From Solobacterium sp. (lineage in GTDB: Bacteria; Bacillota_I; Bacilli_A; Erysipelotrichales; Erysipelotrichaceae), in assembly GCA_017469885.1 (NCBI GenBank), contig JAFUFO010000006.1:1-64000 (forward strand): a stretch of DNA of 64,000 bases, read 5' to 3'. Positions 25,020 through 63,114 of the stretch are shown in pieces. Under the pieces are notes generated by a model. It was not told the DNA's origin, made no database searches, and saw only the letters and a program-made list of their open reading frames with translations. Positions within the stretch are counted from its first letter, which is position 1; every line of letters begins with the position of its first letter. The translations under genes were made by a program, and so were the position numbers.

Positions 25020-25034
25020 AAGCGTTGAAGAAAA

Positions 25035-25253
25035 GACAAGTACCTGTGCAGTGCGACGTCCAAGAGAGGAGATCATACGCTGAAAGATCTCCGGCAGAGC
25101 GCACAGCGAATTCACTTTTCCAGTGAGACTAATCCTCTCCGGGCGATCCCCGTTACGGATCATAATTAAGGTGTATATGCGTACATGCGCATATAAATCA
25201 GGATGGTACCGCGTGATCAGCGTTCCTGGGTTTGACAGGAACGTGTTTTTTTT
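25035..25253 (+). promoter_or_regulatory. T-box riboswitch, Phe-specific, upstream of pheST
   Basis: Stem I contains AGAGAGGA, CTGAAAGATCTCC and the specifier in GAATTCAC, with TTC (25111-25113) in the position after GAA. The T-box AGGATGGTACCGCG is at 25200-25213. The terminator CGTTCCTG/CAGGAACG (25221-25243) ends in eight T. Uncharged tRNA-Phe should stabilise the antiterminator and switch on pheS-pheT. Confidence 0.93.
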
Positions 25254-53869: not shown

Positions 53870-53874
53870 ATCGC

Positions 53875-54119
53875 TAAAGCAAAGAAGTGGAGTAGTAGGT
53901 CCGCAAGCGATTTGAAGCGAACCCGGTATGGTGAGAGCGGGGAAAGGAAATCGGACTGAACGTGCCATGGAGCAGAATCCGCGACGGAAACCGAGCGGAT
54001 TACGTAGAAGACCGCGTTAAGGGAGAGAGTGTCCGGAGGAGTACTGCCTCCGGGAAGAAAAGGTGGCAACGCGCATAACACGTCCTTTGAGCATAGTGCT
54101 CGAAGGACGTTTCTTATTT
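53875..54119 (+). promoter_or_regulatory. T-box riboswitch, Arg (CGU) specific, upstream of argG
   Basis: Stem I pairs GTCC-CGATTT with AAATCGGAC. The specifier follows GAA in GAACGTGC, giving CGT (53961-53963), the same layout as GAATTCAC in the Phe leader of this window. The T-box AAGGTGGCAACGCG ends near 54073. The terminator ACGTCCTT/AAGGACGT (54080-54110) is followed by TTCTTATTT. Uncharged tRNA-Arg should permit transcription of the arg genes. Confidence 0.88.
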
Positions 54120-54129
54120 GGGGGAATCA

Positions 54130-54198
54130 ATGATGAAAACAAGGCGACGAACCAGACAGCTTTATATCACCACCAACCGCATCAATTCGAACCGATAA
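54130..54198 (+). CDS. Arginine-rich leader peptide ORF before argG
   Basis: A 22-codon ORF starting ATGATG, preceded by GGGGGA five to eight bases upstream. It encodes [12 protein letters not shown]... and ends TAA 19 nt before the argG start. Six of 22 codons are Arg (AGG, CGA, CGA, AGA, CGC, CGA), four of them in the first nine codons. It lies after the T-box terminator, so it is made only when the T-box reads through. It looks like an arginine-sensing leader peptide; this is inference, and its product could also be merely incidental. Confidence 0.55.
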
Positions 54199-54217
54199 AC
54201 AGAAAGAGGAAAAAAAC

Positions 54218-55441
54218 ATGAATAAGGAAAACATCAAAAAGGTAGTTCTTGCGTACAGCGGCGGTCTCGACACGTCGATCATCATTCCCTGGCTGAAGGA
54301 AAACTATAATAACTGCGAAGTCATCGCAGTATCCGGAAATGTCGGACAGGCAGACGAACTGGAAGGCCTTGAAGAAAAGGCACTGAAGACCGGCGCATCC
54401 AAACTGTATGTGCTTGATCTTACTGATGAATATGTCAATGACTTCATCATTCCGTGTGTGAAGGCCGGCGCCAAATATGAAGATTATCTGCTCGGCACCA
54501 GTCATGCCCGGCCGATCATCGCCAAGGGTCTTGTCGAAGTGGCATTGAAGGAAGGTGCGGATGCGATCTGTCACGGATGCACCGGAAAGGGAAATGACCA
54601 GGTCCGGTTTGAACTGGCGATCAAACACTTTGCGCCGAACATGCCGGTCATCGCACCTTGGCGGGAGTGGTCCATCAAATCCAGAGATGAAGAAATCGAT
54701 TATGCGGAAGCACACAACATTCCGCTTCGGATCTCCCGGGAAACCAACTACTCCAAGGATAAGAACCTCTGGCATCTGAGCCACGAAGGTCTCGATCTGG
54801 AAGATCCGGGAAATGAACCGCAGTATGACAAGCCGGGCTTCCTGGAAATGAGCGTATCCCCGATGGCAGCGCCGGATCAGCCGGAAGTCATCGAAATGGA
54901 ATTTGAACAGGGCGTGCCGGTCAGCCTCAACGGGGAGAAGATGAGCGCCAAGGACATCGTCCTCAAGCTGAATGAAATCGGCGGAAGAAACGGCATCGGT
55001 CTGCTTGATATCGTGGAAAACCGTCTGGTCGGCATGAAGTCCAGAGGTATCTATGAAACCCCGGGCGGAACGATCCTCTATGAAGCGCATAAGTATCTTG
55101 AAACCATCACACTCGACAAGATGACCGCACATAAGAAGGACGAACTCTCGATGACCTTCGCAGACCTCGTCTATAACGGTCAGTGGTTCACACCGCTGCG
55201 GGAAGCACTCTCCGCATTTGTGGACAAGACACAGGAAACCGTAACCGGTAAAGTAAAGATGAAGCTCTATAAGGGCAACATCATCAAAGCCGGTGTATGG
55301 AGCGATTATTCCCTGTACAGCGAGGATCTCGCGTCCTTCGGCGAATCGGATTATGATCAGACCGACAGCAGAGGATTCATCAATCTCTTCGGTCTGCCGA
55401 TCAAGGTACAGGCACTTGTAGATCAGAAAAATAAAAAGTAA
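54218..55441 (+). CDS. argG: Argininosuccinate synthase
   Basis: A 407-aa enzyme joining citrulline and aspartate with [19 protein letters not shown] is the ATP-pyrophosphatase loop, and [13 protein letters not shown] binds ATP. Length is normal. AAAGAGG precedes the ATG. It opens the operon under T-box(Arg) control and is followed after 16 nt by argH. Confidence 0.98.
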
Positions 55442-55457: not shown

Positions 55458-56843
55458 ATGGCAAAGCTGTGGGCAGGAAGAACGGACGGAACAACCGACC
55501 GGACCGCGGACGATTTCAATTCTTCGATCCGTGTGGATCAGCGCATGTATTACGAAGATATCAGCGGCTCGATTGCCCACGCGGATATGCTGGGAAAGCA
55601 GGGGATCATTCCTGCGGAAGCGGCAGATCATATTATTGCGGCGCTGAAGGAGATCCGCAGTGATATCGAAACCGGAACGCTGGAAATCGATCCTGCGGCA
55701 GAAGACATCCACATGTTTGTGGAACAGGTGCTGACCGGCCGTATCGGGGCGGAAGGAAAGATGCTGCATACCGCGCGCAGCCGCAATGATCAGGTTGCGC
55801 TGGATACCCGCATGTATCTGCGAAAGGAATCCGGAGCGATTCGGAATCTGATTCTCGACCTGATCGAGGTTCTGAAAAAAGCCGGGATGCAGTACCGCGA
55901 TACGATCCTGCCGGGATATACGCACATGCAGCGGGCGCAGCCGATCATGTTCGGCCATCACCTGCTCGCATATGCAATGATGCTGCTGCGGGACTATGAC
56001 CGGCTGAGCGACGGGGAAAAGCGGATGAACGTATCTCCGATCGGCGCGTGTGCACTGGCCGGAACGACCTATCCGACCGACCGGGACTATGAGGCGCAGC
56101 TGCTTGGCTTTGACCGCGTTGCCATGAACAGTATGGATGCGGTGTCCGACCGGGACTTCTGTCTGGAACTGATGAGCGCATTGTCGATTCTCATGATGCA
56201 TCTGTCGAGATTCAGTGAAGAGCTGATTCTCTGGTCCAGCTGGGAATTCGGCTTTGTGGAACTCTCGGACGCATATACGACCGGTTCCTCCATCATGCCG
56301 CAGAAAAAGAATCCGGACATGGCGGAACTGATCCGCGGCAAGACCGGCCGGGTATACGGTGATCTGATGACGCTGCTTACGACCATGAAGGGTCTTCCGC
56401 TTGCCTATAACAAGGACATGCAGGAAGACAAGGAACCGGTATTTGACGCAGTGGATACGGTAAAGCTGTGCCTTGGCATCCTGACACCGATGCTGAAGAC
56501 CATGAAGGTGAAGGAAGACAATATGTACGCCGCTGCACAGCGGGGATTCATCAATGCGACTGATCTTGCGGACTATCTTGTCACGAAAGGTCTCCCGTTC
56601 CGGGAAGCCTACAAGATTTCCGGCGCAATCGTCTCTCACTGCATCGCAAACGGTCAGGTACTGGAAACACTTCCGCTCAAGACGTATCAGACATTCTCCG
56701 ACGTCTTTGCAGAAGATCTCTACGACGCAATTGATCTCAGAAACGCGGTAAACCGCAGAACTTCAAAAGGCGGAACCAGTGCTGCCTCTGTGGAAGAACA
56801 GTGCAGCTGGCTGGACGCACAGCTTGCCGCACGAAAGGGGTAA
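55458..56843 (+). CDS. argH: Argininosuccinate lyase
   Basis: A 461-aa lyase that splits argininosuccinate into arginine and fumarate. It has the fumarase-superfamily signature GSSIMPQKKNPDMAEL and HTARSRNDQVALD. GGAGACGG precedes the ATG. It lies between argG and argC. Confidence 0.98.
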   Translation: MAKLWAGRTDGTTDRTADDFNSSIRVDQRMYYEDISGSIAHADMLGKQGIIPAEAADHIIAALKEIRSDIETGTLEIDPAAEDIHMFVEQVLTGRIGAEGKMLHTARSRNDQVALDTRMYLRKESGAIRNLILDLIEVLKKAGMQYRDTILPGYTHMQRAQPIMFGHHLLAYAMMLLRDYDRLSDGEKRMNVSPIGACALAGTTYPTDRDYEAQLLGFDRVAMNSMDAVSDRDFCLELMSALSILMMHLSRFSEELILWSSWEFGFVELSDAYTTGSSIMPQKKNPDMAELIRGKTGRVYGDLMTLLTTMKGLPLAYNKDMQEDKEPVFDAVDTVKLCLGILTPMLKTMKVKEDNMYAAAQRGFINATDLADYLVTKGLPFREAYKISGAIVSHCIANGQVLETLPLKTYQTFSDVFAEDLYDAIDLRNAVNRRTSKGGTSAASVEEQCSWLDAQLAARKG

Positions 56844-56846
56844 TCC

Positions 56847-57776
56847 ATGACGAATATCTTCATTGACGGAAGTTCCGGCACCACCGGGCTTCAGATCCGG
56901 GAGCGGCTGAGCACCCGGACAGATATCCATCTGATTGAGGTTCCCTATGAGGAACGCCACAGTGAAGCAGTGCGGAAAGAAGCGTTGAACCGTGCGGACA
57001 TCGCATTCCTGTGTCTGCCGGATGATGCGGCGGAAGTATCCGCATCACTTGTCGAAAATGAACATACCGTTGTCATTGACACTTCCACGAAGCACCGGAC
57101 AGCACCCGGATGGGTATATGGGCTTCCGGAACTGGAAGGACAGCGTGAACGGATCCGCAATGCAAAACGGATTGCCAATCCGGGCTGCCACGCAACCGGC
57201 TTCATCACCCTGGTTGAACCGCTTGTGCGTGCCGGTATTCTTGCGAAGGAAACTCCGTTGCAGTGCTTCTCTCTGACCGGCTATTCCGGCGGCGGAAAGA
57301 AGATGATCGCGCAGTATGAAGATGATGCACGGGAACTTCTGCTGGATGCGCCGCGGATGTACGGGCTCACGCAGAATCACAAGCATCTGAAGGAAATGAA
57401 ACAGATCTCAGGTCTGGAGAAAGAACCGGTATTCTGTCCGATCGTTGCGGATTACTACAGCGGGATGGAAACCGTCGTGCCGCTGTTTGCGGACTGGATC
57501 CATGGAGATATGGACTGGATTAAGGAAGTGTATCGCAACGTATACACGGACGGCCTGATCCGCTTTGCGGAAGACAATAACGAAAACGGATTCTGTGCCG
57601 GCAACGCATTTGCCGGACGGGATGATCTTGAAGTAAGAGTTGAAGGAAATGCAGAGCGCATTCTGCTCATTGCACGCTTCGACAACCTCGGAAAGGGAGC
57701 CTGCGGGGCAGCGATTCAGAATATGAATCTGGTCATGGGCATTCCGGAGACAACCGGATTACGTACAGGAGGCTGA
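56847..57776 (+). CDS. argC: N-acetyl-gamma-glutamyl-phosphate reductase (short type)
   Basis: A 309-aa NADPH-dependent reductase. GSSGTTGLQIRERL binds the cofactor and NPGCHATGFI holds the catalytic Cys. The short length fits the type 2 ArgC form, shorter than the roughly 345-aa common form. It starts 3 nt after argH. Confidence 0.95.
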   Translation: MTNIFIDGSSGTTGLQIRERLSTRTDIHLIEVPYEERHSEAVRKEALNRADIAFLCLPDDAAEVSASLVENEHTVVIDTSTKHRTAPGWVYGLPELEGQRERIRNAKRIANPGCHATGFITLVEPLVRAGILAKETPLQCFSLTGYSGGGKKMIAQYEDDARELLLDAPRMYGLTQNHKHLKEMKQISGLEKEPVFCPIVADYYSGMETVVPLFADWIHGDMDWIKEVYRNVYTDGLIRFAEDNNENGFCAGNAFAGRDDLEVRVEGNAERILLIARFDNLGKGACGAAIQNMNLVMGIPETTGLRTGG

Positions 57777-57780
57777 CAAC

Positions 57781-59001
57781 ATGAAGTTTACGGAAGGCGG
57801 TGTCTGTGCCGCAAAAGGATTCTCTGCATCCGGCATGCATTGCGGGATCCGCAGAGGAAAGACAAAAGAAGATCTTTCACTGATCTGTTCAAAGATACCA
57901 TGTCAGGGAGCCGGCCTGTTCACCCGCAACCAGGTGAAAGCAGCACCGGTGCTTCTGGATATGGAAACAATCAAAAATGAGTCGTTTCATGCGATTATTG
58001 CAAATTCCGGTATTGCCAATGCCTGTGCACCGCACGCGATGGAAAACGCTAAGAAAATGCAGAAGGCAGCTGCGGCGGCACTGGGCGTGGAGGAAACTTC
58101 GGTTCTGATCGGTTCCACCGGTGTCATCGGTGTGGATCTTGATGTATCCAAGATCGAAGCCGCGCTTCCGGAACTGATCGGTCTGCTTGCAGGAACACCG
58201 GAAGGATCCGACAAAGCCGCAAAAGGTATCATGACAACTGATACGAAGAAAAAGGAACTTGCGGTGGAATTTGAACTCGACGGCAGGACTGTCCGGCTGG
58301 GCGGCATCTCCAAGGGATCGGGGATGATTCACCCGAACATGGGAACGATGCTCTGCTATCTCACAACGGACTGTGCGATTTCCAAGCCGATGCTGAAACA
58401 GGCACTGAAATATGTCTGTGACCGGACATTCAACCGGATCAGCGTCGACGGTGATACCTCGACAAACGATTCGCTGATCATCCTGGCAAACGGATGTGCA
58501 GGGAATACCCCGATCGAATCCGAAGGAACGTCCTTCAGCCTGTTCTGCGATGCACTGCTGATGCTGTGCACGGAAATGGCACGGCGGATGGCAGCGGATG
58601 GTGAAGGTGCATCGCATCTGATCACCTGCAACGTATCGGAATGCGAAAGTGAAGCAAAGGCGGAGACCCTTGCCAAGTCGGTAATCTGTTCCCCGCTGAC
58701 CAAGGCTGCAGTCTTCGGATGTGACGCAAACTGGGGCCGTGTGCTCTGTGCGCTTGGCTATTCCGGTGAATCCTTCGATGTGGACAGCGTCGATATTCAG
58801 TTTGCCTCCGCGGCAGGCACGGTCGATGTCTGTAAAGACGGCAAAGGTCTGAACTTTGACGAAGAACTTGCGGAAGCGGTCCTGAAGGAACCGGAAGTCA
58901 TCATCAACGTAACCATGCACGAAGGAACAGAACACGCCACCTGCTGGGGCTGTGATCTGACCTATGACTATGTAAAGATCAACGGAGATTACAGAACATG
59001 A
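57781..59001 (+). CDS. argJ: Bifunctional ornithine acetyltransferase / N-acetylglutamate synthase
   Basis: A 406-aa self-cleaving enzyme that recycles the acetyl group from N-acetylornithine to glutamate. The cleavage and nucleophile motif reads HPNMGTMLCYLTTD, with Gly where most members have Ala before the Thr. GNAGNTPIESEG and the C-terminal WGRVLCALGYSG are typical. Presence of argJ means a cyclic pathway, so argA and argE are not required. Its stop overlaps argB by 4 nt. Confidence 0.95.
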   Translation: MKFTEGGVCAAKGFSASGMHCGIRRGKTKEDLSLICSKIPCQGAGLFTRNQVKAAPVLLDMETIKNESFHAIIANSGIANACAPHAMENAKKMQKAAAAALGVEETSVLIGSTGVIGVDLDVSKIEAALPELIGLLAGTPEGSDKAAKGIMTTDTKKKELAVEFELDGRTVRLGGISKGSGMIHPNMGTMLCYLTTDCAISKPMLKQALKYVCDRTFNRISVDGDTSTNDSLIILANGCAGNTPIESEGTSFSLFCDALLMLCTEMARRMAADGEGASHLITCNVSECESEAKAETLAKSVICSPLTKAAVFGCDANWGRVLCALGYSGESFDVDSVDIQFASAAGTVDVCKDGKGLNFDEELAEAVLKEPEVIINVTMHEGTEHATCWGCDLTYDYVKINGDYRT

Positions 59002-59864
59002 ACGCAGCCATGATCAATAACAGCACACGGGCAGAGATCCTTGTACAGGCGCTGCCGTATCTGAAGCGTTACTACGGAAAAACCATTGTCGTGAAGTACG
59101 GCGGGAACGCCATGATCAGCGAGGATCTGAAAGAACAGGTCATGGAAGATATCGTTCTGCTTTCCATGGTCGGAATCAAGGTGGTGCTTGTTCACGGCGG
59201 CGGACCGGAGATGTCTGACCTTATGAAGCGGCTCGGAAAACAGCCGGAATTTGTTGACGGACTTCGCGTCACCGATCAGGAAACGATCGATATTGCGGAA
59301 ATGGTGCTCGCCGGCAAGATCAACAAGAGCCTCGTGAGTCTCCTTCAGATGAAAGGCGGAAAGGCCATCGGACTTTCCGGAATTGACGGACGTATGATCC
59401 AGGCGGATTTCAAGGATGAGCGCCTCGGTTATGTCGGCAATGTCACAAAGATCAATGCAGAGCCGATCTTTACGGTACTGAATCAGGGCTATATCCCGGT
59501 CATCTCCACGATCGGCTGTGACAAGCGCGGAAATACCTTCAACATCAACGGAGACACTGCCGCAGGCAAGATTGCGCCGGCAGTCAATGCCGTGCGTCTC
59601 ATCATGATGACGGATATTGAAGGTATCCGGAAAGACAGGGATGATCCTTCCACCCTGATACCGGAACTTACGGTTTCAGAAGCGGAAGAAATGATTAAGA
59701 GCGGTGAGATCTCCGGCGGAATGATTCCGAAAGTCCGCTGCTGTATCGATGCGCTTAACGACGGCGTCAAGGCAACCGTCATTATCGACGGACGCGTGCC
59801 GCATGCCACACTGATGGAAATTCTGACAGACGAAGGTGCCGGCACAATGTTCAGAAAGGACTGA
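58998..59864 (+). CDS. argB: Acetylglutamate kinase
   Basis: A 288-aa amino-acid-kinase-fold enzyme that phosphorylates N-acetylglutamate. VVKYGGNAM and VLVHGGGPEMSDLM are the nucleotide and substrate loops; NGDTAAGKIA lies near the active site. The extended N-terminal helix (residues 1-25) suggests the arginine-sensitive hexameric class. It overlaps argJ by 4 nt. Confidence 0.97.
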   Translation: MNAAMINNSTRAEILVQALPYLKRYYGKTIVVKYGGNAMISEDLKEQVMEDIVLLSMVGIKVVLVHGGGPEMSDLMKRLGKQPEFVDGLRVTDQETIDIAEMVLAGKINKSLVSLLQMKGGKAIGLSGIDGRMIQADFKDERLGYVGNVTKINAEPIFTVLNQGYIPVISTIGCDKRGNTFNINGDTAAGKIAPAVNAVRLIMMTDIEGIRKDRDDPSTLIPELTVSEAEEMIKSGEISGGMIPKVRCCIDALNDGVKATVIIDGRVPHATLMEILTDEGAGTMFRKD

Positions 59865-59867
59865 ATC

Positions 59868-61049
59868 ATGAAAGATATAAAAACACTGGATCAGACATAT
59901 GTCGCATCGACCTACGGAAGATTTCCGGTCGTCATCACCGGCGGGAAGGGATGTATCGCAGTTGATGATCAGGGTAAGGAATACATTGATATGGGTTCCG
60001 GCATCGGAGTCAATCTGTTCGGTTACAGTGATCCCATCTGGAAAGAAGCGGTCATCGCACAGCTCGATGCGGTTCAGCATACCTCGAATCTGTATTACAC
60101 AGGCCCATGCGCACAGCTTGCGGAACTGCTCTGTGAGCGAACCGGTCTGAAGAAGGTGTTTTTCTGCAATTCCGGCGCGGAGGCCAATGAATGTGCAATC
60201 AAGGCTGCCCGCCGTTATGCCCAGCTGAACAAAGGGGATGACTTCTATACGATCATCACCCTGAACAACAGTTTTCACGGCCGCACCCTCACAACCCTTG
60301 CGGCGACCGGACAGGAGAAGTTCCACAAGCTGTTTCATCCGCTGACACCGGGATTTGTGTCGGTACCGGCCAATGACAGTGATGCACTGCGTGATGCAGT
60401 AAAAAACAATAAAACTGCCGCAATCATGCTGGAGTGTGTACAGGGAGAAGGCGGCGTCAATCCGCTCGATCAGGCATTTATCGACACTGCAGTTGAACTG
60501 GCGGAAGAATACGATCTGCTCATCATCGATGATGAAGTACAGACCGGAAACGGCAGAACCGGAACACTGTATGCATACATGCAGTACGGATTTCAGCCGG
60601 ATATTGTGACAACGGCCAAGGGACTCGGCGGCGGTCTTCCGATCGGCGCGACAATGCTGGGAGAGAAGGTGAAGGATATCTTCACACCCGGTGACAACGG
60701 TTCCACCTTCGGCGGCAATCCGGCGGTATGTGCCGGTGCGGTTTCCAACCTGAAGCGGATCGATGAAGCGCTCCTTGCGGATGTCAGAAGAAAATCGGAT
60801 CTGATTTTCAGCACTCTGAAAGGAAAAACCAACGTAAAATCGGTCGCCGGCATGGGACTGATGATCGGAATCGAGCCGGAACAGGGAACAGCGGGAGACA
60901 TTGCGAAGGCATGTCTTGAACACGGCGTTCTCGTACTGACTGCCGGCGGCAATAAAGTGCGGCTTCTGCCGCCGCTGAACATCAGTGATGACGAACTGAA
61001 CCGTGCACTGAATGTAATTGCGAATGCATTTGCAAACGGAAAGGAATGA
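59868..61049 (+). CDS. argD: Acetylornithine aminotransferase
   Basis: A 393-aa PLP aminotransferase. VFFCNSGAEANECAIKAAR, LIIDDEVQTGNGRTG and TTAKGLGGGLPIGA with the Schiff-base Lys are class III signatures. It converts N-acetylglutamate semialdehyde to N-acetylornithine. Its stop overlaps argF by 4 nt. Confidence 0.97.
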   Translation: MKDIKTLDQTYVASTYGRFPVVITGGKGCIAVDDQGKEYIDMGSGIGVNLFGYSDPIWKEAVIAQLDAVQHTSNLYYTGPCAQLAELLCERTGLKKVFFCNSGAEANECAIKAARRYAQLNKGDDFYTIITLNNSFHGRTLTTLAATGQEKFHKLFHPLTPGFVSVPANDSDALRDAVKNNKTAAIMLECVQGEGGVNPLDQAFIDTAVELAEEYDLLIIDDEVQTGNGRTGTLYAYMQYGFQPDIVTTAKGLGGGLPIGATMLGEKVKDIFTPGDNGSTFGGNPAVCAGAVSNLKRIDEALLADVRRKSDLIFSTLKGKTNVKSVAGMGLMIGIEPEQGTAGDIAKACLEHGVLVLTAGGNKVRLLPPLNISDDELNRALNVIANAFANGKE

Positions 61050-62038
61050 GTTTTATGAATCTGAAGGGAAGAGACTTTCTGACGCTGCTTGATTTCACAC
61101 CGGAGGAGATTACATATCTGCTTGATCTTGCGGCGGATCTGAAACAGAAAAAGAAGAATCATGAACCGCATCATCTCTGCGAGGGAAAGAATGTTGCGCT
61201 GATTTTTGAAAAGACCAGCACCCGCACCAGATGCGCCTTTGAAGTCGCCGCGAGTGATCTTGGCATGGGCAGCACGTATCTTGGTCCGACCGGTTCACAG
61301 ATCGGCGTCAAGGAATCGATTCCCGATACCGCACGCGTTCTTTCGCAGATGTATGACGCAATCGAATACCGCGGATTCGGACAGGAGATCGTTGAAGAAC
61401 TCGCAAAGTATTCCGATGTCCCGGTATATAACGGCCTGACGAACGAATTTCATCCGACCCAGATTCTTGCGGATATGCTTACGATCCGGGAACATTTTGG
61501 AACCCTGAAGGGCATTCACATGGTGTATATGGGCGATGCCAGATACAACATGGGCAGATCCCTCATGATCGGCTGCGCCAAGCTCGGGCTTCACTTTACC
61601 GCATGTGCGCCGGATGGCTACTTTCCGGACGCAGCACTGACGGATACCTGTCAGAAGATCGCGGAGACAACCGGTGCCGTGATCGATTTCTCGAGTGATC
61701 CTGCGTCTGCCGTAAGCGATGCGGATGTGATCTATACCGATATCTGGGTTTCCATGGGAGAACCGGAGGAAGTATGGACGGAACGCATCAACCTCATGAA
61801 GCCGTTCCAGGTTAACAGCGCATTGATGGCGCACGCAAAACCTTCCTGTATTTTCATGCACTGTCTGCCTTCCTATCATGATCACCGTACGGAGATCGGA
61901 AAGAAGGTCGGCGAGACCTATGGCATGGAAGCGCTGGAAGTAACCGATGATGTATTTGAAGGCCCGCAGTCGGTCGTCTTTGAGGAAGCGGGAAACCGCA
62001 TGCATACGATCAAGGCGGTGATGGCGGCGACCTTATGA
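61046..62038 (+). CDS. argF: Ornithine carbamoyltransferase
   Basis: A 330-aa enzyme that makes citrulline. EKTSTRTRCAFE binds carbamoyl phosphate and FMHCLPSYHDH is the ornithine-binding His-Cys-Leu-Pro loop (Ser where many have Ala). YNGLTNEFHPTQILAD is also conserved. An anabolic role is supported by the neighbours. It overlaps carA by 4 nt. Confidence 0.97.
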   Translation: MSFMNLKGRDFLTLLDFTPEEITYLLDLAADLKQKKKNHEPHHLCEGKNVALIFEKTSTRTRCAFEVAASDLGMGSTYLGPTGSQIGVKESIPDTARVLSQMYDAIEYRGFGQEIVEELAKYSDVPVYNGLTNEFHPTQILADMLTIREHFGTLKGIHMVYMGDARYNMGRSLMIGCAKLGLHFTACAPDGYFPDAALTDTCQKIAETTGAVIDFSSDPASAVSDADVIYTDIWVSMGEPEEVWTERINLMKPFQVNSALMAHAKPSCIFMHCLPSYHDHRTEIGKKVGETYGMEALEVTDDVFEGPQSVVFEEAGNRMHTIKAVMAATL

Positions 62039-63114
62039 CCCGGACCAGGGCATATCTGGTGCTGTCTTCCGGGGATGTATTTGAAGGCTGGGCATTCGGT
62101 GCCGAGGCGGATCATATTGGCGAACTGGTATTCACCACCAATATGTGCGGCTATATCGAAACGCTGACGGACCCGAGTTATGCCGGACAGATCGTCATCC
62201 AGACCTTTCCGCTGATCGGAAACTATGGAGTCATCCGGGAAGATTTTGAAGGTGCTTGCCTGCTCAACGGCTATGTGGTGCGGGAGTACAGTGATACACC
62301 GTCCAATTTCCGGTGTGAGATGACACTTGATGCATTTCTGAAGGAACAGGGGATTCCCGGTATTTTCGGCGTGGATACCCGTGCTCTGACGCGCATCATC
62401 CGAGAGAGCGGTGTTATGAATGCGATGATCTGCAGGGAAGTGCCGAAAGACCTGAAGTTGATTCAGAAGTATCAGGTTCAGGGCGTCGTCGCAGAGGCGA
62501 GCTGTAAGAATGTGGAAACCCATCCGATCACTGACTCGGATTATCATGTGGTCCTGATGGACTTCGGTGCCAAGCGGAACATTATCCGCGAACTGAACCG
62601 GCATGGATGCAGTGTCACGGCTGTGCCGTATGATACCTCCGCAGAGGAGATCCTTGCGCTTCATCCGGACGGCATCATGCTTTCAAACGGCCCCGGTGAT
62701 CCGGCAGAGAATACCGGCGCCATTGAACAGATCCGCAGACTGTTCGGGAAGGTACCGATGTTTGGAATCTGTCTTGGACATCAGCTGGCGGCGCTTGCGG
62801 CCGGAGGAATCACATACAAGATGAAATATGGCCACCGAGGTGCCAATCAGCCTGTGACCGATAAAGTGACCGGCCGTTCCTTTATTACGACGCAGAACCA
62901 TGGTTATGCGGTGGATCTGGAGTCCCTGGACGGGATTGCGGAAGTGCGCATGGTCAATACCAATGACGGAACCTGCGAAGGCCTGGATTATCCGGACCGG
63001 AAGTGTTTTACCGTACAGTTTCATCCGGAAGCCTGCGCCGGTCCGAAAGATACGGAATTCCTGTTTGACCGCTTTATCCGCATGATGGAGGACAGTAAAC
63101 ATGCCCAGAGATAA
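62035..63114 (+). CDS. carA: Carbamoyl-phosphate synthase, small subunit
   Basis: A 359-aa glutaminase subunit. [14 protein letters not shown] holds the nucleophilic Cys and FHPEACAGP the His/Glu of the class I glutamine amidotransferase. The N-terminal half contacts CarB. It supplies ammonia for carbamoyl phosphate used by argF. Its last bases overlap the carB start by 14 nt. Confidence 0.97.

Follow-up and report, generated by a model that had tools for sequence, protein, structure and literature searches.

The closest described relative of the locus reported here is the rtpA (yczA, anti-TRAP) operon of B. subtilis, in which a tryptophan T-box is followed by RtpLP, a leader peptide with Trp codons (PMC11255114, PMC2311275). 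Anti-TRAP is thus under T-box control and under translational control via tRNA-dependent ribosome stalling (PMC11255114; PMC2311275); complete translation of RtpLP prevents the translation of rtpA (PMC2311275). This work on RtpLP and anti-TRAP is that of Chen and Yanofsky (2003, 2004), as cited in PMC11255114. In the papers searched, such a tandem of T-box and leader peptide is known so far from this one operon type. A second point of reference is the Salmonella speF leader, SpeFL or orf34, in which low arginine leads to ribosome pausing and to increased downstream expression (PMC6386406). Our literature search, whose scope excluded most subscription journals, found no paper on an arginine version of the tandem. 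In this report, we describe one, in which the same transfer RNA is probably checked twice, during transcription and then during translation.

The window, i.e., the whole 64,000-nucleotide stretch analyzed, comes from a draft assembly of 2.66 Mb (95.7% complete); the closest named relatives of this assembly are rumen ‘Solobacterium’ MAGs. The features of interest follow one another in the order T-box, terminator, leader ORF and argGHCJBDF-carAB:

53873..54090, + strand: T-box leader, arginine type (Rfam RF00230), 94.1 bits against a gathering score of 93
53961..53963, + strand: specifier codon CGU, matching tRNA-Arg(ICG), read from the sequence at the expected site
54059..54073, + strand: T-box sequence / 5' part of the antiterminator, AAAGGTGGCAACGCG
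54080..54119, + strand: intrinsic terminator hairpin and U-rich tract, -22.4 kcal/mol, z -8.7
54120..54125, + strand: Shine-Dalgarno-like GGGGGA of the leader ORF
54130..54198, + strand: leader peptide ORF of 22 codons; alternative start at 54133; in-frame relatives at 100 loci
54145..54150, + strand: CGA CGA (Arg6-Arg7), conserved core and proposed stall site
54204..54210, + strand: argG Shine-Dalgarno (SD), AAGAGGA
54218..55441, + strand: argG, argininosuccinate synthase (TIGR00032)
55458..56843, + strand: argH (TIGR00838)
56847..57776, + strand: argC (TIGR01851)
57781..59001, + strand: argJ (TIGR00120)
58998..59864, + strand: argB (TIGR00761)
59868..61049, + strand: argD (TIGR00707)
61046..62038, + strand: argF (TIGR00658)
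62035..63114, + strand: carA (TIGR01368)
from 63101 past the window end, + strand: carB-like ORF, named by its translation alone

The first of these elements contains the Stem I, antiterminator and T-box sequence of RF00230, although its score exceeds the gathering score only narrowly. Its specifier follows the GAA of the specifier loop and is itself followed by G, and the amino acid specified is that of the downstream genes: CGU precedes an arginine operon, and specifiers in the relatives inspected read CGU, CGC or CGA. The UGGC of the T-box sequence is predicted to pair with the discriminator base, G73, of tRNA-Arg; because G73 occurs in every tRNA-Arg gene seen, this pairing cannot discriminate among the tRNA-Args. 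Elsewhere in the window are a THF riboswitch (RF01831; 18432-18502, - strand; 39.2 bits, gathering score 36) and a second T-box-like element (25024-25230, + strand; 71.8 bits, under the gathering score), the gene after which has a pheS-like start.

The leader ORF itself is real. It runs from an ATG at 54130 (another ATG, at 54133, is better spaced from the SD-like element) to a TAA at 54196-54198, and its Arg codons are numbers 5 (AGG), 6 (CGA), 7 (CGA), 9 (AGA), 17 (CGC) and 22 (CGA). The initial annotation had described an ORF of 22 codons with a ribosome-binding site, six Arg codons (four of them in the first nine), an end 19 nt before the argG start and close to the argG SD, and a tRNA-Arg T-box upstream; all of these particulars are borne out, the argG start being the ATG at 54218. 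Pfam searches with the peptide and two of its relatives, all very short queries, returned no match at E up to 1.

To place the leader among its relatives, regions 5' of argG were gathered from the same order (Erysipelotrichales-like) and from named genomes, and duplicates were removed. A leader was scored as an ORF behind the terminator with two adjacent Arg codons, or with CGA and a near miss; spacers were measured from the T-box sequence to argG, those >110 nt forming the long class. By these measures a leader ORF is present at 44 of the 46 distinct T-box argG loci with long spacers and at none of the 22 with short ones. It is likewise missing from all 69 argG loci that lack a T-box, many of them from Clostridia and Oscillospiraceae in the named-genome set. 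The loci are related, and these counts are therefore not independent; on a tree of 34 ArgG proteins, the leader was gained or lost at least 4-5 times. The two long-spacer exceptions, L135 and L142, have no Arg-Arg motif and instead carry the short ORFs MKLKDV and MKLHR, which perhaps are decayed leaders. A search for argG on plasmids yielded nothing useful.

What has been conserved in these peptides is narrow. In a motif-anchored alignment of 94 leaders, Arg occupies the two core positions in 94/94 (1.00) and 91/94 (0.97) cases, the next two positions at frequencies of 0.44 and 0.21, and positions from the fifth on at 0.02-0.10. Of the Arg codons in the window leader, only the CGA CGA pair at codons 6-7 is kept, and none of the remaining four is conserved. 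The initial annotation had staked its proposal on conservation of the Arg codons in relatives, and the contrast between 100% and 97% at the core and 2-10% from the fifth position on is in its favor. The trait that it had singled out must nonetheless be redrawn: a pair of Arg residues in specific CGA codons is maintained, whereas a general richness in Arg is not. With that amendment, the comparison of relatives supports the idea that T-box and leader may sense in tandem. Natural variation exists within the core, as the leaders of L154 and L155 have CGA AAA (Arg-Lys) and thus differ by a single codon at the second Arg. Because the peptide is not conserved outside two residues, tandems of this kind can be missed.

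The codons chosen for the pair point to a particular tRNA. CGA is found at the first core position in 85 of the 94 leaders and at the second in 90, and the pair is nearly always CGA CGA or CGG CGA; further along the same leaders, Arg is mostly encoded by AGA. These frequencies must be read with the origin of the leaders in mind: the transporter loci described below were selected with the pattern CGRCGA, which biases their codon choice; codons played no part in the selection of the argG set, although five listed hexamers served to call its motif. In the genes of the window, CGA accounts for 6.7% of Arg codons, and none of the 66 Arg-Arg pairs is CGA CGA. ARAGORN, run on the best 30 of 42 tRNA matches in the draft assembly and on their surroundings, gave tRNA-Arg anticodons ACG (twice), CCG, CCT and TCT; tRNA-Arg(UCG) (anticodon TCG) was not among these best 30 of 42 matches and is likely absent from the genome. 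Because no such tRNA was seen, CGA is taken to be decoded only by tRNA-Arg(ICG), the species that the T-box also reads with its CGU specifier. Further, Arg-Arg pairs containing CGA are among the slow pairs in Salmonella (PMC4046918). A CGA pair is therefore well suited to sensing a shortage of tRNA-Arg(ICG), and we suggest that it may do so here. If so, these leaders would show that a codon pair can be selected in nature as a sensor because it is poorly decoded.

The tandem is not restricted to argG. In 315 genomes of the order, we looked for CGRCGA at 40-70 nt after a T-box core; 87 genomes from 24 genera matched, against ~20 genomes for the reversed pattern. The codons CGYCGY are read well by the same tRNA-Arg(ICG), and this control pattern was found in 6/315 genomes, with no leader among the matches listed. 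The non-argG loci that were fetched mostly have an in-frame leader ahead of a gene for an amino-acid ABC transporter whose start resembles that of a lipoprotein, and two example proteins match SBP_bac_3. We kept 56 distinct motif-found loci, excluding L293 and L294 as false positives. Almost all of them lie before the gene of a probable arginine ABC transporter; a few have no gene in the available sequence, including L252, at the end of a contig, which probably is an argG leader. Where they could be read, the T-box specifiers of the transporter loci are CGC, CGU or CGA, from which the transporters are probably arginine-specific. Since this set was found by its motif, it is unfit for estimating how frequently transporters have a leader. 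In L265 and L267 no stop separates the leader frame from the transporter gene, such that the Arg-Arg leader would be an N-terminal extension of the protein.

Two further T-boxes in the window's own genome deserve mention. L188 (C20:60293-60505) has a CGC specifier and precedes an amino-acid transporter gene without an Arg leader, although relatives of this locus have one; L181 (C30:2969-3203) is followed by an IS200-like transposase (Y1_Tnp), and the usual gene is absent. We considered whether T-boxes in this genome generally have a leader behind the terminator and rejected the notion: the other T-boxes that were read run straight into genes, apart from three that were truncated or ambiguous, and L188 is leaderless. 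Beyond the order, no case was found in class and phylum samples with a pattern that requires CGRCGA, the phylum draw having returned the same class only. In sum, the arginine tandem is common to two operon types in about 24 genera and recurs at about 100 distinct loci within one order of gut bacteria. The initial annotation was right to call the arrangement unusual insofar as it is rare; it is not new, given the precedent of the rtpA operon with its Trp T-box and RtpLP.

We propose that T-box and CGA CGA leader form a tandem sensor of tRNA-Arg(ICG), with occlusion of the argG SD in the manner of RtpLP, and put the probability of this reading at roughly 60%. By the known T-box mechanism, uncharged tRNA-Arg would pair with both the antiterminator and the CGU specifier, allowing transcription to read through the terminator. 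A ribosome would then initiate on the leader ORF just past the terminator and meet CGA CGA, decodable in this genome, it appears, by tRNA-Arg(ICG) alone via I-A wobble. With charged tRNA-Arg scarce, it would stall at codons 6-7, about 70 nt 5' of argG; a ribosome held at 54145-54150 would leave the argG SD uncovered and the ribosome-binding site free. With charged tRNA-Arg plentiful, ribosomes would reach the stop codon, their leading edge at about nt 54208, and the terminating ribosome would partly mask the SD and reduce the translation of argG, in parallel with the effect of RtpLP on rtpA.

The anatomy of the locus, the in-frame conservation of the Arg-Arg pair, the codon choice and the co-occurrence with T-boxes can be read directly; from them we infer that ribosomes stall, that the SD is occluded and in which direction expression changes. 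It is likely that the leader senses by ribosome stalling, because CGA needs tRNA-Arg(ICG), which the T-box reads as well; how a stall would raise expression is the more conjectural step. We defined an occlusion geometry as a leader stop that lies past the gene start or <=26 nt ahead of it. The window has this geometry, with its stop ending at 54198 and the SD beginning at 54204, as do 20 of the 44 argG leaders and 23 of the 52 transporter leaders. Because under half of the leaders fit, occlusion is not the universal output. In relatives whose leader stop lies far upstream, the stalled ribosome would probably be used otherwise; it might, for instance, protect the mRNA as a 5' roadblock. Further, some relatives get by with a T-box and no leader; because there are many of these, the separate contribution of the leader could be tested with natural variants.

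The roadblock could also be the general answer, at the window's locus too. The sensor would be the same, and the ribosome at CGA CGA would stabilize the read-through mRNA against RNase J, as in ermC; on the return of arginine the roadblock would clear and the mRNA would decay fast. B. subtilis mRNAs are stabilized by stalled ribosomes, and its thrS T-box leader is cleaved 5' of the terminator (PMC3997798); in Salmonella, Arg-Arg pausing in speF orf34 protects the mRNA (PMC6386406). The genome encodes two RNase J paralogues. In the argG set, terminator and stall site are separated by a fairly constant distance (40 +/- 9 nt), whereas the distance between stall site and argG is variable (81 +/- 35 nt), with stop positions from -149 to +34; what the stall brings about may therefore hinge on the 5' side. 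It is because the former varies less than the latter that we retain this as the main rival. The fixed distance, however, may merely mirror where initiation sites are placed, and the terminator hairpin by itself may already shield a processed 5' end. On balance we consider this explanation possible, though unlikely. Its broadest form, a lineage-wide tandem with both parts reading tRNA-Arg(ICG), the T-box setting synthesis and the leader setting decay as a 5' roadblock with no occlusion of the ribosome-binding site, strikes us as rather doubtful.

Amino-acid leader peptides usually act through RNA structure, and a stall might switch alternative hairpins, which would hide the argG SD or act as another terminator. 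In one genus, a few loci with long spacers (L147, L152, L172) do fold somewhat better than shuffled sequences. The leader-to-argG spacers as a whole, however, fold like shuffles (mean z 0.04), the argG SD is mostly unpaired (mean 0.80), nucleotides 54120-54240 of the window have z +0.86, and no second terminator occurs in the spacers read. With no conserved structure between leader and argG and a mostly open SD, attenuation by hairpins is very unlikely.

One might also suspect a chance or remnant ORF without function, or a nucleotide motif that only looks coding; neither the C-terminal part nor the stop, after all, is conserved, and the ORF is missing in some relatives. When start codons were picked by a score for SD and start codon, frame disregarded, the motif nevertheless proved to be in frame with the best-scoring start at 100/100 loci. 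Among shuffled argG leaders, 0.46 of 44 would be expected to have the motif at codons 2-7, as opposed to the 44/44 observed in frame. The start-to-motif distance shifts by whole codons, the motif lying at codons 2 to 6 and mostly at 4 in the first set counted. These facts, with the conservation of the Arg pair, render a functionless ORF highly improbable. Pairing of CGACGA with CGUC of the terminator was considered separately and rejected on inspection, as CGGCGA is kept alongside an ACCUC terminator (L025, L026, L161, L162) and the motif never falls out of frame. Attenuation by Rho under the control of leader translation, although it operates in Salmonella speF orf34, is scarcely credible here, since no rho was found in the 95.7% complete assembly: the only matches, of about 51 and 29 bits, stay below the cut-off of 509 and fall on neighboring ORFs that are probably ATP synthase subunits.

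Among known systems, several share one element or another with the tandem that we propose. Leader peptides of his operons in other Erysipelotrichales (PMC9413887) belong to the same order and also contain codons for the relevant amino acid, but they are terminator/antiterminator transcription attenuators of genes without a T-box and form no tandem. The window leader is not of the his/trp attenuator type, as its terminator lies 5' of the leader and the spacers are unstructured; nor is it of the erm type, in which a stall frees the SD from a hairpin, as the SD is open and the spacer z is about 0. The S. aureus rbfL leader (PMC13009471) resembles it in sensing arginine with rare Arg codons, but those codons are AGA/AGG, there is no T-box, and the pause blocks the downstream ribosome-binding site and represses. 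SpeFL shares the two consecutive Arg codons, which there are codons 12-13 of a conserved peptide domain (DUF2618, PF10940, to which the window leader has no match), and it works with Rho and RNase G and without a T-box.

The rtpA operon remains the nearest parallel. In both, a short leader ORF with its SD stands right behind a T-box terminator and has consecutive codons for the amino acid, and the tRNA, that the T-box senses; in both, a check on transcription would precede one on translation, and in the window the leader stop likewise lies near the SD of the next gene. The differences are that the amino acid is arginine rather than tryptophan, that two codons, CGA CGA or CGG CGA, replace three Trp codons, that the stop position is not conserved, such that occlusion cannot be the general output, and that operons of biosynthesis and transport in about 24 genera are controlled directly and not via a regulator. 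The arginine tandem is thus a widespread variant of the tandem known from B. subtilis anti-TRAP.
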